From Bacteroidota bacterium (GTDB taxonomy: Bacteria > Bacteroidota > Bacteroidia > Flavobacteriales_E > Vicingaceae): a stretch of 64,000 nt of DNA. The stretch spans positions 1-64,000 of the forward strand of contig JABFGJ010000001.1 of NCBI GenBank assembly GCA_013112545.1, given 5' to 3'. The notes under the pieces are model-generated. The model was not told where the DNA came from, ran no database searches, and worked only from the letters and a program-made list of their open reading frames with translations. Of this stretch, positions 1 through 56,211 are shown one piece after another (position 1 is the first letter of the stretch; every line of letters starts with the position of its first letter). The position numbers and the translations under genes were made by a program.

Positions 1-126
1 CTTAACAAGCTTGCGTCTTACTAATACTTCCCCAACGTTACTCGGGGCGTATAAGGGACTTACACCCTTTGGATTAAATTCAATATTTAAAAGAACTTAT
101 TTATATTTACCATTCAAGGCACACAC
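1..126 (-). mobile_element. Group II intron, 5' part (continues beyond window start)
   Basis: Read on the minus strand this begins GTGTGTGCC at 126, matching the GUGYG 5' end of group II introns. It then contains AAAGGGTGTAAGTCCC, the familiar domain I segment of bacterial group II introns. The first 65 bases or so are nearly identical to the starts of two other intron copies at 1454 and 2559. The rest of the intron lies off the left edge, so whether it keeps a reverse transcriptase is unknown. It sits at the inner edge of an attC-like palindrome, like the other two copies. Confidence 0.72.
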
Positions 127-313
127 ATTATATAAAAATCATAGGGCGTCAGCAGGTTACGAGATTTTTGTGTTTATCTGAAACTCCACAAAATCGCTTT
201 GGCGATTTTTGAAATAAGAATAAGTTAAAAAATACCAAAGCGATTTTGTTAATTAGTAAACCGCAAATTGTATCTTTACTTATCGCCCTACGCTTCTTAT
301 ATGGGCGTTGGCA
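127..313. repeat. attC-like imperfect palindrome, site 1
   Basis: The left arm 127-148 is the imperfect reverse complement of the right arm 284-305 (CGCCCTA and TTATAT blocks pair). A smaller perfect hairpin (AAAATCGC/GCGATTTT, near 191-212) lies between. The right arm runs into GTTGGCAG at 307, which is matched in complement by CTGCCAA at the end of the following gene (near 815-822). This arm, gene, complementary-end geometry is that of an integron cassette recombination site. Calling it attC is inference, because no integrase is in view. Confidence 0.5.
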
Positions 314-338
314 GTAATGCAAAAATGCACAAGAAACA

Positions 339-806
339 TTGACGGAAAATTTGAAACATAGAAGACCTGACCTCCTAAAACCAACTCTGATTTTTTCAGC
401 GGTTGGACTTTTTATACCAGGGTTTACAGCGATTGGAATTCTCAGTTTTCAGATGTTACTTTCTTATTTTGGACTTGAGTGCCATAATGCTTGGTCGGTT
501 CTTTGGTCAATTACAATTATTGGTGGACTGATTCTACCGATACTTTTCTACCGACACTTAAAGACTTTCACAGAAAATAAGCGTGAGAATTTAAAAACTC
601 GACTGACCTTCTTTAATCTAATTGAATACATATTCATTCAAGCCAGTTTAGCTCTGTTCTTCACGAGTGGACAAACTCTTTGCTATGTTTCGGACGGACA
701 AAATGGACTTGAATTAGCATTTACAGCTTGGATAGCACTACCAATACTAATTGGACTTAGCGCCTTATTCAATTGGACTTTGAAATCTCAAAATGAAAAA
801 AAATAA
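339..806 (+). CDS. Hypothetical four-helix membrane protein (cassette 1)
   Basis: A 155-residue protein starting with TTG. It has four hydrophobic stretches (about residues 15-45, 50-72, 92-112 and 127-148), so it is probably a small integral inner-membrane protein. The N-terminus and C-terminus are both polar and basic, which fits an even number of membrane passes. I do not recognise the family. It is the only gene between two attC-like sites, and its flanks GTTGGCAGTA (307) and TACTGCCAA (814) are complementary to each other, so it looks like the payload of a single-gene cassette. No promoter with a clear TAnnTTTG box was seen directly in front. Confidence 0.6.
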   Translation: MTENLKHRRPDLLKPTLIFSAVGLFIPGFTAIGILSFQMLLSYFGLECHNAWSVLWSITIIGGLILPILFYRHLKTFTENKRENLKTRLTFFNLIEYIFIQASLALFFTSGQTLCYVSDGQNGLELAFTAWIALPILIGLSALFNWTLKSQNEKK

Positions 807-821
807 AAGCACATACTGCCA

Positions 822-1454
822 ATCGAGTAGATGGCTCCGACTAATCCTGCGGGATTAGTCGGAGTTCACCTCTCACACCACCGTACGTACGGGTCTCGTA
901 TACGGCGGTTTGTAACCCATCTTTCTAATCGCTCTTTACACCGACTAAAACTATTCTCTATTTTATGATAAGGCTACAGATTTTCTAGGGAATCGGTCAC
1001 CCAATAATGAAAATCAATGCTCCTAATCTAATTTCAAGAAGGGTTACATTCAGTCCTTCCCTAATCGTGAGACCTCCACGCTTTGGCGTGGCTCATTTCC
1101 ATAGGTACTATGACCTCGGCTGACTTCTCTGTTCTGCTACACGTAGCTACAGAGATCTCCCTCGGTAAGATAAATATCCTTTAAACTATGTCTGCTGGAT
1201 CTACTATTTCGATTATCTCTGCTTTCACAGTTTAGGACTTCGCAATGATGTGCTTACTCATCCAATCTAATAGCCTCATATCCAATTCCTGTTCGTCAGT
1301 ACAGTTTACGCAGTCTGGCTTACTTCAGTCTAAACCTCACGGTTAGCAACCTTGCCACTTGCTTTGCTTCGGAGCGTTACCACCGCGCATTCGGGACTTT
1401 CACCCTTTGGGACATTCATGTAAAAGAACTATATTTACCATTCAAGGCACACAC
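822..1454 (-). mobile_element. ORF-less group II intron, apparently complete ends
   Basis: A 633-base element on the minus strand. It starts GTGTGTGCC at 1454 and carries AAAGGGTGAAAGTCCCG of domain I shortly after. It ends with a domain VI-like hairpin (840-866) and the terminal sequence CTACTCGAT at 830-822. Domain V is clear at 909-877: a 9-bp stem ACCGCCGTA/TACGGTGGT, an upper stem TACG/CGTA and a 2-base CG bulge on the 3' side. No reverse transcriptase/maturase frame exists inside, so splicing or mobility would need a protein in trans. It is inserted antisense to the neighbouring genes, immediately next to the cassette end CTGCCAA. Confidence 0.8.
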
Positions 1455-1641
1455 AAAACCTATACGCAATGCGGGTTGACGAGATAAACGAAAGGTCGGT
1501 GCTTTTAGCCCGCCAAAGCTCCGCTTTGACGTTTAAGTTGTTTAAATTTATAAACGCAAAACGCAGCTTTGGCTACCGTTGGTGGCGGTGGACAAGTACG
1601 ATGTTCCAAAATCCGCACTGCGCATAGCCGGAACGTTGTAG
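1455..1641. repeat. attC-like imperfect palindrome, site 2
   Basis: The left arm CCTATACGCAATGCGG (1459-1474) pairs with the right arm CCGCACTGCGCATAGCC (1613-1629) with two mismatches. The site ends in GTTGTAG at 1635-1641. That end is complementary to CTACAAC, which is rebuilt at the far end of the next cassette when intron copy 3 is removed. The loop contains further GC-rich short inverted repeats. It fits a long bacterial attC site interrupted on its left by a group II intron. The interpretation is inference from geometry. Confidence 0.55.
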
Positions 1642-1672
1642 AACACAGTTAACATGCCAATAAAGCAAAATA

Positions 1673-1711
1673 TCCCAAATTGGGAAATATTGATTGGTTT
1701 TTGTATATTTG
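1673..1711 (+). promoter_or_regulatory. higBA promoter and probable HigA operator
   Basis: A perfect 6-1-6 palindrome TCCCAA-A-TTGGGA lies at 1673-1685. It overlaps a TTGG (-33-like) element at 1680, which is 20 bases from TATATTTG at 1704-1711, a match to the Bacteroidota -7 box TAnnTTTG. The ATG of the toxin begins only five bases after the box, so the transcript is likely to be leaderless or nearly so. A palindrome over the -33 element of a toxin-antitoxin operon is the expected place for autoregulation by the HTH antitoxin. Confidence 0.5.
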
Positions 1712-1715
1712 CATA

Positions 1716-2015
1716 ATGAGAATTATTGCTTTTAGAACTTTAAGAGAGTTTTTTGAAAAACCAGAATTCTCAGATTCTGAGGTTTCATTGAGAGCTTGGT
1801 ATCACGATGCAATAATAGCGGATTGGAAAAATTCCAATGAACTAAAAAGACAATATAAAAACGCAAGTATTGTTGGTGAAGGAAGAGTAGTTTTTAATAT
1901 TAAAGGCAATGATTACAGATTAGTAGTTGCCATAGATTATGAATTCCAGGTGATTTTCATAAGATTTATTGGAACACATAAACAATATGATAAAATTGAT
2001 GCAAAAACGATTTGA
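1716..2015 (+). CDS. higB: HigB-like mRNA interferase toxin
   Basis: A 99-residue protein of the HigB/RelE toxin fold (type II toxin-antitoxin). The start is the ATG at 1716, placed just after a TATATTTG box; an upstream in-frame TTG would overlap the promoter. Family features visible are the R-x-L-x-E/FF N-terminus, a central tryptophan-rich helix (RAWYHDAI, ADWKN), and the C-terminal strands with RLVVAIDY, IRFIGTHKQYDKI. The tail HxxYDKIDAKTI is typical of the HigB_toxin group known in Bacteroidota. The family cleaves mRNA on the ribosome. The antitoxin gene follows two bases downstream, in toxin-first order as in other higBA pairs. It is the payload of the second cassette. Confidence 0.85.
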   Translation: MRIIAFRTLREFFEKPEFSDSEVSLRAWYHDAIIADWKNSNELKRQYKNASIVGEGRVVFNIKGNDYRLVVAIDYEFQVIFIRFIGTHKQYDKIDAKTI

Positions 2016-2017
2016 TT

Positions 2018-2368
2018 ATGGAGATACGACCAATTAAAACAGAACAAGATTATAATTCAGCCATGAGCAGGATTGAAGAATTGTGGGGAGCAAAAAAAGA
2101 TACCCCAGATGGTGACGAGCTTGATTTATTGGTGACCTTAGTTGAGTCATACGAAATGAAACATTATCCTATAGCTCCTCCAGACCCAATTGATGCGATT
2201 AAATTTCGCATGGAGCAGATGGGTATGACAAATTCGGATATGGTAAAATATTTGGGCAGTCAAAGTAGAGTGAGTGAGATTCTTAATAAAAAAAGAAAAC
2301 TGACATTAGGAATGATTAAATCACTTTACAAAGGATTAAAAATACCTGCTGAAATATTATTAACCTGA
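2018..2368 (+). CDS. higA: HigA-like HTH antitoxin
   Basis: A 116-residue antitoxin partner. I take the ATG at 2018, two bases after the toxin stop; an in-frame TTG at 2012 is also possible. The N-terminal half is acidic and helical, with the segment DELDLLVTLVESYE that is characteristic of this HigA group. The C-terminal half (about residues 62-116) is a helix-turn-helix of the XRE class (MTNSDMVKYLG, SQSRVSEILNKKR). It should neutralise HigB and bind DNA. The palindrome at 1673-1685 is the natural candidate operator. The gene is followed after 24 bases by the remains of group II intron copy 3. Confidence 0.85.
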   Translation: MEIRPIKTEQDYNSAMSRIEELWGAKKDTPDGDELDLLVTLVESYEMKHYPIAPPDPIDAIKFRMEQMGMTNSDMVKYLGSQSRVSEILNKKRKLTLGMIKSLYKGLKIPAEILLT

Positions 2369-2392
2369 TTGACAAAAAATCAACGTGCTACA

Positions 2393-2559
2393 ATCGAGTA
2401 AACGGCTCCGCCCCTTAATAGGGACGGAGTTCGCCTCTCACACCATCCTGCCTTCTGCGGGACGATTCAATAACCATCAAAAGAGGTCAGGCAACCTTTT
2501 AGATTAAATTCAATATTTAAAAGAACTTATTTTGTATTTACCATATTCAAGGCACACAC
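2393..2559 (-). mobile_element. Internally deleted group II intron remnant (167 bases)
   Basis: Minus strand. It has the same start as the other copies (GTGTGTGCC at 2559, then about 60 near-identical bases) and the same end (GTGTGAGAGGCGAACTCC, a domain VI hairpin and TTTACTCGAT ending at 2393). Everything between the first ~65 bases and a degenerate domain V (near 2433-2465) is missing. If it is removed, the flanking bases join as CTACAAC, the exact complement of GTTGTAG at the other end of the cassette. It is too short to self-splice. Confidence 0.7.
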
Positions 2560-2774
2560 AACATGTATGTGACATGTGCTTCACTGCTTATCTGAAAGAA
2601 TGTGCGTCTTACCGCGCTTTTTTTGTTTTGTATTTCTTGGATGGATTGGTCGTGCTTGCCAGAAGTTATTTCACCAGACTCGCGCAGGCTCGGCTTCTTC
2701 TATTGCGTTAAGTTCTTTGCTAAGCTTTACCGGAACTTGAAGGAAACAAAAAAGCGCTATTTTAGTAGTGACAA
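2560..2774. repeat. attC-like palindrome, site 3
   Basis: A gene-free stretch of 215 bases after intron remnant 3. Two nested arms can be seen. GCGCTTTTTTTGTTTT (from about 2616) pairs with the reverse complement of AACAAAAAAGCGC (near 2743-2755), and TCACTGCT (near 2580) pairs with AGTAGTGA (near 2765). The right-hand core motif is not as clear as at sites 1 and 2, so the boundary of the next cassette is uncertain. Confidence 0.4.
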
Positions 2775-3422
2775 ATGAAAGGTGGCACACGACCACATAT
2801 ATTGGAGTTAGCATTAATTAGAATGAACTTAAAATTTCAAATATTTATTCCTAAGAAACATAGACCTATCCCAATTACAAACATCGTATTGGTTTCTATT
2901 ATCGGATTGGCAGTACTGACTTATCTTTTTGACTATTTCTCTGTTGGCTTTGTTTCTACTAAAACTATTGCGATAGTTATGTTTGTTGGCCTTTTTTTAT
3001 TCTTTCTTCGAGCTGCGATAGTCAGAGGAAAAATTAGACCTTATCACGGGAGACTCGAAGGTTGGATATATTTTAACGATAATGGATTAAAAATTAATAA
3101 TGAAGAAATTGATTTAAAGGATTTGACAAAACTCGATTTTGAATTTGGATCATACTATTCTGAATTTATTCATCATAATACTCCAATAATTGAACCTTGG
3201 AGAGAAAATGGGACAAATAATTTCTTAAAATTAAATTACATAGATGGTACCACAAGAAGCATCCAGTTTCAAAGGATGTATGAAGATCAACAGAAATATC
3301 TAAAGCCATTTTTAGAGTATTCATTTAATATGAACCTTATGTCATTTTTACGATTGACTGATCTCCTTGGTATCACCAAATATGAGGAAATACAAGACTA
3401 TAAAAAGAAAATAGAAAACTAA
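2775..3422 (+). CDS. Hypothetical two-helix membrane protein with PH-like C-terminal domain
   Basis: 215 residues from the first ATG; a second ATG at 2823 (residue 17, MNLKFQIFIPKK) may be the true start because the segment before it is not membrane-like. Two hydrophobic helices (about residues 35-52 and 63-82) are followed by a soluble domain of about 120 residues. That domain has the pattern GWIYFNDNGLKINNEEIDLKDL, LDFEFG, FLKLNYIDGTTRSIQFQR, resembling the strand-rich PH-like domains of bacterial membrane proteins. No catalytic motif is visible. It is the third gene of the cassette-like region and shows no functional link to its neighbours. Confidence 0.6.
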   Translation: MKGGTRPHILELALIRMNLKFQIFIPKKHRPIPITNIVLVSIIGLAVLTYLFDYFSVGFVSTKTIAIVMFVGLFLFFLRAAIVRGKIRPYHGRLEGWIYFNDNGLKINNEEIDLKDLTKLDFEFGSYYSEFIHHNTPIIEPWRENGTNNFLKLNYIDGTTRSIQFQRMYEDQQKYLKPFLEYSFNMNLMSFLRLTDLLGITKYEEIQDYKKKIEN

Positions 3423-3708
3423 TGCTAATAACTAAGTTTCCCTCCACGGCGGGCAAGCTGTTTTGCCGATAGGCTAAAAATGAATATTGTGCCTGACCGC
3501 CGGCAAGAGGTTTGACGAAGTAAATACCTTGGGATAAAACGATTTTCAAAGATTGCCTTCTTGGAATCAAAAGATGATTCGGGTTTTAATAATTAATCCC
3601 TTAAGTTTTTGAAAACAAGAAGAGTTGAGATGCTTATTTATTTTACCAGTCCATTTCCAGAAAAAAAATTGATTTTGATTGCGATACAGACATGAAGGTT
3701 CAAGTCGT

Positions 3709-33157: not shown

Positions 33158-33266
33158 TGAACTTATCTTCGCTCCGAATACATCGGAGCCAGGAATTGGC
33201 ACCTTTTCCATTTCTGAAAAGGTTGCCAAGGCTTCACAGGGCCTGTCCCTCTGCCTTTCTTGATAA
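33158..33266 (-). promoter_or_regulatory. SAM-I (S-box) riboswitch controlling metH
   Basis: The minus strand shows the S-box core in order: TTATCAAGAAAGG (P1 5' side), AGAGGGACAGGCCC, GAAGCCTTGGCAACC, AAGGTGCCAATTCC and GAAGATAAG (P1 3' side). TTATC and GATAA pair to close P1. The 3' strand of P1 runs on as TAAGTTCA, which can instead pair with the terminator loop. So SAM binding keeps P1 closed, frees the terminator and turns metH off. The aptamer begins almost at the stop of the upstream small gene (33269). Confidence 0.93.
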
Positions 33267-33268
33267 AA

Positions 33269-33514
33269 TTAATTTAATGAACGATCTTTATTCTTAATAT
33301 GATGTTTGTATAAAAAATACCCAACAGTTGCCATTAGAATATAAGGAACAAACATAATATAAATAATGCCAGAGTTTATTCCTTTTCCAACTGCATCTTC
33401 TCCATTTTGCATATTTGATTCTAAAACAGCTTTACACATGGAGCATTGAGCTTCAACATCAAGCGAGAGCACAATAAAAAACGCAACAATAATAAAAGGA
33501 ATTAACTTTTTCAC
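33269..33514 (-). CDS. Small secreted/membrane protein with CxxC
   Basis: 81 residues. A signal peptide (residues 1-22, ending VEAQ) precedes CSMCKAVLES, a CxxC pair just inside the mature protein. A second hydrophobic helix spans residues about 47-67, then a basic tail KHHIKNKDRS. This short protein is often found beside SCO and oxidase genes in Bacteroidota. The CxxC may be a redox or copper site in the periplasm, which is inference. It is separated by 35 bases from the DUF420 gene and is directly followed by the metH riboswitch. Confidence 0.6.
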   Translation of the reverse strand: MKKLIPFIIVAFFIVLSLDVEAQCSMCKAVLESNMQNGEDAVGKGINSGIIYIMFVPYILMATVGYFLYKHHIKNKDRSLN

Positions 33515-56170: not shown

Positions 56171-56211
56171 TGCCCATAACACCCGAATAAAGCGAAAAGT
56201 ACGTTTATTCG
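56171..56211. repeat. Cassette end and attC-like hairpin
   Basis: TGCCCATAAC (56171-56180) is the complement of GTTATGGGCA at 55051. It is followed at once by a hairpin CGAATAAA(G)CG/CGTTTATTCG (56184-56211). A matching right-hand core was not found afterwards, so this may be the end of an array or a decayed site. The rest of 56121-56351 has no gene. Confidence 0.45.

Follow-up and report, generated by a model that had tools for sequence, protein, structure and literature searches.

Introduction

IntegronFinder 2.0 recovered one complete integron in Bacteroidetes, in Salinibacter ruber, and integrons were deemed almost absent there (PMC9024848). Calls of integron integrases (IntIs) require the IntI-specific domain (PMC9668308), and for this reason they would pass over the recombinase family described here. 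Integron recombination sites are also known as targets of group II introns: published IIC-attC introns insert antisense in the attC R'' at TTGT/T (PMC7923331). Here, we analyse a stretch of 64,000 nucleotides (nt) from a Bacteroidota bacterium of the family Vicingaceae (JABFGJ010000001.1, positions 1 to 64,000; the window). This window makes up the opening 64 kb of contig C1 in a draft genome of 3.27 Mb and 24 contigs. We propose, from sequence comparison, that the start of the window forms part of an integron-like cassette system with a non-IntI recombinase, plus attC-specific group II introns (probability about 0.86). An earlier note on the same DNA had suggested an integron-like cassette array with attC-targeting antisense group II introns, and the comparisons support that proposal. 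The cassette system is not peculiar to this genome.

Cassettes and attC-like sites in the window

The start of the window comprises three cassettes, the two ends of each being complementary to one another. A minus-strand group II intron lies at the equivalent point of every joint within positions 1-3430 (Table 1), and all three intron 5' ends are where the earlier note had placed them, the middle one being recognised by Rfam. That note had also described cassette-specific complementary ends. Both pairs are present, GTTGGCAGTA at 307 with TACTGCCA/AC and GTTGTAG at 1635 with CTACA/AC (the slash marks the intron), and intron removal restores them. Its list lacked the third cassette (2807-3428).

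In silico removal of the introns, read as GTGTGCC...CTCGAT, gives ...TACTGCC-AACAAAACC and ...CTACAACAACATG. These de-introned sequences fit nnnnnYAACA[AC]YGTATA, which is the consensus of intron-free sites elsewhere. The alternative intron ends GTGTGTG/CTCGATT were dropped in favour of GTGTGCC/CTCGAT; with these, the CAACAA consensus reappears at the two complete sites of the window and also in other genomes. Of the three palindromes proposed as sites, sites 1 and 2 fold as attCs once de-introned and are also found by covariance model R1, which was built solely from 31 intron-free sites (118-nt class) of other genomes.

The open reading frame (ORF) of cassette 1 (339-806, 155 amino acids, aa) has no match in Pfam or NCBIfam family scans. 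Cassette 2 carries a HigB/HigA-like pair: a HigB-like toxin ORF at about 1716-2015 (PF09907 HigB_toxin, E 1.8e-31) and a helix-turn-helix antitoxin ORF at 2012-2368 (PF01381 HTH_3, E 1.6e-4). For the cassette 3 ORF, within 2775-3422, the Pfam scan gave no family.

Table 1. Features at the start of the window. Fold z values are against mononucleotide shuffles.
Feature	Position	Strand	Details
Group II intron 1, 5' part only	1..124	-	5' end at 124; remainder beyond contig start; end recurs at many contig ends
attC-like site 1, right part (long imperfect hairpin)	125..306	+	intron inserted in R''/spacer side; R1 match 117-315(-), E 0.0011; fold z -5.75
Cassette 1	307..821	+	start GTTGGCAGTA, end TACTGCCA then AC past intron; exact own-end complementarity
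Group II intron 2, 631 nt, ORF-less	822..1452	-	antisense to cassette genes; attC insertion at bottom-strand TTGT/TG
attC-like site 2, right part	1453..1634	+	R1 match 1445-1643(-), E 0.001; de-introned fold z -4.13
Cassette 2	1635..2392	+	start GTTGTAGAACACAG, end CGTGCTACA then AC past intron; 1 mismatch in 9 between ends
Group II intron 3, 165 nt, internal deletion derivative	2393..2557	-	both ends kept; repeats D2, D12, D13
attC-like site 3, right part, degenerate	2558..2806	+	outer arms still pair; fold z -0.41; no R1 match
Probable cassette 3	2807..3428	+	start GTTAGCATTA; end-like TAATGCTAA at 3420-3428

Recombinase and attI

The genome encodes a recombinase that is phylogenetically distinct from IntIs. 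The earlier note saw an array without a visible integrase; at the level of the genome an integrase is present, as one gene on contig C13, and it is not a canonical IntI. This 380-aa tyrosine recombinase is followed by an attI-like inverted repeat, where the sequence reads AATAAACGTACCTTTCGCTTTATTCG, GAT, GTTGCCCACA, and then by one cassette (ends TGTGGGCA). The attC of that cassette is filled by a group II intron, after which the contig ends.

The best NCBIfam match of the recombinase is the XerA-like NF040815 (225 bits, cut-off 220), and it falls under the IntI cut-off (TIGR02249, 191 against 265). A canonical IntI in the window genome was rejected, as none scores above the NCBIfam cut-off. 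In an alignment, about 40 residues of the IntI-specific (I2) region are present in 13/13 IntIs and absent from all 23 Bacteroidota recombinases examined; the sequence of the IntI4 structure 2a3v aligns with the recombinase except for residues 178-244. We found that IntIs (99) and Bacteroidota recombinases (99) form separate clades on long branches, whose mutual order the tree does not fix. A fold search with a predicted model returned Xer and IntI as nearest; the model has a pTM (predicted template modelling score) of 0.46, so the I2 question was judged on the alignment.

The Bacteroidota recombinases also carry about 100 additional aa at the N-terminus, a domain that is not in IntI. In the L037 recombinase, residues 1-105 are conserved, have no Pfam match and are not in IntI, with a predicted beta-beta-alpha-beta-beta-alpha-beta order. 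As a candidate substitute for I2, the domain may provide additional DNA binding.

Copies of attI are also dispersed through the window genome. There are at least eight, for example on C3, C4, C6, C7 and C10, and the next cassette is intron-filled on C4 and C10. One copy, AATAAACGTACTTTTCGCTTTATTCG, lies in the window at 56184-56209 (-), far from any recombinase; upstream of it lies a fragment of the recombinase 3' end, and downstream a cassette-like start, GTTATGGGC. Three copies (L042, L045 and the one at 56.2 kb of the window) share a further upstream repeat, approximately gagctagccgaaattnggctgtataattgtacattttggca. It looks as if attI and the recombinase tail had spread as part of a repeat family.

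Cassette arrays across Bacteroidota

Related recombinases are widespread within Bacteroidota. A scan of GTDB genomes with a 16-recombinase alignment gave at least 571 relatives, of which 80 were kept; all 80 are Bacteroidota, mostly Flavobacteriales, with Fulvivirga outside that order. Hits at E<=1e-60 in 91/296 phylum genomes were not counted as members, many of the matches covering the Xer-like part only. An inverted repeat with GTTR lies just downstream of the recombinase in 78 of 101 related loci. It is here, behind the recombinase, that similarity between relatives stops, which marks the repeat as attI.

The complementarity of cassette ends is not due to chance. Of 59 unique loci, 50 have an exact 9-nt complement of the first-cassette start downstream; swapping starts among loci gives an expectation of 2.24. 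The claim of cassette-specific ends thus extends beyond the window. The attC sizes are discrete, with clusters near 54, 118, 156 and 181 nt. Cassettes have a median length of 697 nt; their longest ORF is on the same strand in 152/157 and begins a median of 27.5 nt past GTT. A scan of 105 cassette proteins matched 56 different Pfam families, nearly all once, and this one-off spread is as expected for cassette pools. Cassette genes include toxin-antitoxin systems, a methylase, SLATT, reverse transcriptase (RT) and many unknown families. The idea that contig breaks are commoner downstream than upstream of the recombinase was unsupported (13 vs 14 of 75 within 400 nt, unique set).

More distant Bacteroidota recombinases (35-44% identity; L096 342-560, L080, L082) also precede GTTR cassettes with complementary ends. 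In this distant group, such cassettes were seen in 3/10 checked, several loci being too short to test. The system may therefore be broader.

Cassettes are exchanged between arrays. In each of the 18 recombinase pairs with at least 75% nucleotide identity (maximum 97.1%, Oceanihabitans and Aequorivita), the first cassettes are unrelated to each other. Two arrays each carry a duplicated cassette (773 and 593 nt; copies 100% identical), set among different neighbours. Furthermore, an Aquimarina array shares a 943-nt cassette with a genome of the window's family; the two copies are 90.6% identical, and the similarity ends at the cassette boundaries. These close pairs, duplicates and shared cassettes indicate exchange at attI, and with it the earlier note's expectation of exchange among relatives was borne out.

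Folding and strand bias of attC sites

The attCs are imperfect palindromes with R and L stems that fold on the bottom strand. Among 31 sites of the 118-nt class, double compensatory changes occur at 13 of the 20 consensus pairs, and at two consensus pairs the bottom strand nearly always has G.T. In 140/163 attCs (p 9e-21), the bottom strand folds more stably than the top. This is because stem mismatches are mostly A.C on the top strand (382, vs 42 top G.T, in the 163 sites), that is, G.T on the bottom. Such an asymmetry is of the kind needed for strand choice. Model R1 finds attC sites in 44/46 genomes of the order, which include intron-free sites of the same kind, as the earlier note had asked of other genomes.

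Group II introns

The introns of the window belong to a lineage that targets attCs. Both ribozyme and RT/maturase identify them as group II introns: Rfam finds RF02001 (98 bits) at 1170-1346(-) and RF01998 at 1053-1147(-) in intron 2, and the C13 intron encodes a 420-aa RT/maturase (TIGR04416, 382 bits, cut-off 300). Intron 1 shares TATATTTACCATTCAAGGCACACACA with intron 2 (100%) and with intron 3 (77%, ungapped). By comparison of the boundaries with the published consensus (PMC7923331), insertion is antisense, in the attC R'' at TTGT/T. Related introns occur in 10/46 genomes of the order, and elsewhere in the order those with readable ends are all at the same attC position, ...YA/ACA. Since an attC-specific intron recognises these sites, it lends independent support to their attC nature. 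In filling attCs, the introns represent a second kind of parasitism, one that is already known, although the host system is new.

The window genome has about 20 intron copies or fragments. Many contigs terminate in these same intron ends, which accounts for the fragmented assembly. Most visible cassette joints in this genome are intron-occupied, including the first cassettes on C4, C5, C10, C13 and C16, and the insertions separate the hairpin arms by 165 to >1,700 nt. The intron is thus frequent, but not, as the earlier note inferred, a standard part of the sites: intron-free attC matches lie on C3, C8, C15 and C18.

On contig C14, a second, different group II intron (RF00029, RF01999; L041 551-1219 (-)) adjoins the intron-filled site with which the contig begins. 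Elsewhere in the window, an S-adenosylmethionine (SAM) riboswitch (RF00162, 96 bits) lies at 33160-33269 (-).

Proposed mechanism and alternatives

In the reading that we propose, the tyrosine recombinase gene lies immediately before an attI-like inverted repeat, after which comes GTTR, and it would serve circularisable cassettes, each made up of an attC and one gene or pair of genes. The first 9-13 nt of a cassette (GTTRnnnnn...) complement its own last (...nnnnnYAAC), and an inner stem (GTATATA... and its complement) closes a bottom-strand hairpin of about 54, 118, 156 or 181 nt. The recombinase would then join the folded attC bottom strand to the double-stranded attI next to GTT, so that cassettes may enter behind attI and then be stacked, excised and reshuffled. 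A separate attC-specific intron lineage, whose maturase gene is in the C13 copy, at the first attC of that contig, inserts into the attC bottom strand at TTGT/T between R'' and L''. It has come to occupy many attCs of the window genome, three of them in the window, and a filled attC may be disabled until the intron is lost.

Could the cassettes instead be those of ordinary IntI integrons, left as a canonical integron remnant (CALIN) beside an incidental recombinase? The overall anatomy is alike, the introns use the known IIC-attC target, and IntIs above the NCBIfam cut-off occur in 84/296 phylum genomes. However, only one of the matches listed (G082) is from the window's class, and the window genome itself has none. 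The non-IntI recombinase adjoins attI in nearly all sampled loci, and GTTRRRY fits just 10 of 188 cassette starts, where GTTR is invariant by construction. We thus regard this origin as very improbable. Less far-fetched, although still unlikely, is a double-strand Xer/dif-like module system in which inverted repeats in double-stranded form are the substrate of the recombinase and the hairpins serve only to bind protein. It would suit the XerA-like best match, the near-perfect inverted repeat of attI and the absence of the I2 helix. Against it, cassette ends vary in sequence yet still pair with their own partner, which argues for selection on the fold rather than the sequence, and on the bottom strand the mismatches in stems tend to be G.T. 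We give almost no credence to group IIC introns sitting beside unrelated terminator hairpins, with coincidental complementarity of gene ends. Known IIC introns do insert after terminators, besides attCs (PMC7923331), and a few insertions in the window genome (e.g., L046, L050, L043) have no clear cassette. Nevertheless, the swapped-start test refutes coincidence, similar sites that lack an intron occur in 44/46 genomes, and the stems show compensatory changes.

Within the integron-like reading, the introns might also act as locks: an insertion between R'' and L'' would block attC folding and freeze the cassette, in an immobile state that is either selected or drifting. The size of the insertions between hairpin arms and the intron-filled first cassettes on five contigs fit this tentative idea, for which we see slightly less than even odds. 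On the other hand, loss of intron RNA or DNA could restore sites, and the ribozyme loop might still let the outer arms pair.

Several points weigh against the integron-like reading. The I2 helix is held to be necessary for attC recombination and cassette capture, known only from IntI, and the innovation that created integrons (PMC7790495). The recombinase has no I2 domain beside PF00589, the pairing by which integrons are recognised; the proposed folded-strand step is therefore without known enzymatic basis. Site 3 of the window, which the earlier note had counted among its palindromes, is degenerate, folds no better than shuffles and was not found by model R1. The physical link between C13 and the window lies outside the draft assembly, whose fragmented contigs end in introns. 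Finally, since complementarity was itself the rule for picking the chained cassettes (203 in total, at most 12 in succession), the first-cassette test alone is unbiased for it.

Comparison with known systems

Anatomy, end complementarity, covariation, strand bias, cassette exchange and intron target can all be read from the sequences, and they suggest a system that works like an integron; from them we infer catalysis on folded single strands by the recombinase. We do not file the system as a canonical integron because the integrase domain is missing and cassette starts depart from GTTRRRY. Searches of open-access papers, preprints excluded, gave no description of the present system. We lean towards the view that Bacteroidia possess a widespread class of integrons of their own, whose Xer-like recombinase recombines folded single-stranded attCs despite having no I2 helix. 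If so, functional integrons arose twice or need no I2. A large I2-less integron-like family would explain why standard tools miss such platforms, and it would add a large reservoir of mobile cassette genes. With two lineages to compare, the requirements on an integrase that acts on a folded strand would become directly testable.

Like integrons, including sedentary chromosomal ones (IntI/attI/attC), the system has a recombinase gene, an adjacent attI, and tandem cassettes that usually carry one ORF in one orientation. Both have cassette-specific complementary ends at GTT/AAC, hairpin attCs with an unpaired spacer and a variable terminal part, a bottom-strand bias, and cassette exchange. In contrast to IntI, the recombinase here lacks the IntI-specific domain, forms a separate clade and has the additional N-terminal domain. 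The attI is an inverted repeat. Cassette starts are rarely GTTRRRY, the complementarity is longer (9 to 13 nt), and conserved G.T pairs stand in place of the described extrahelical G/T.

The introns share with group IIC-attC introns the antisense position in the attC R'' at TTGT/T and the combination of group II RNA with RT/maturase, and are likened to them by target site. They differ in that the host attC belongs to a non-IntI system and in reaching some 20 copies or fragments in one genome. The recombinase agrees in family and catalytic residues with XerA/XerC/XerD. Unlike in dif/pdif modules, it goes together with cassette arrays whose hairpin sites vary, not with a single conserved dif-like site of 28 bp.

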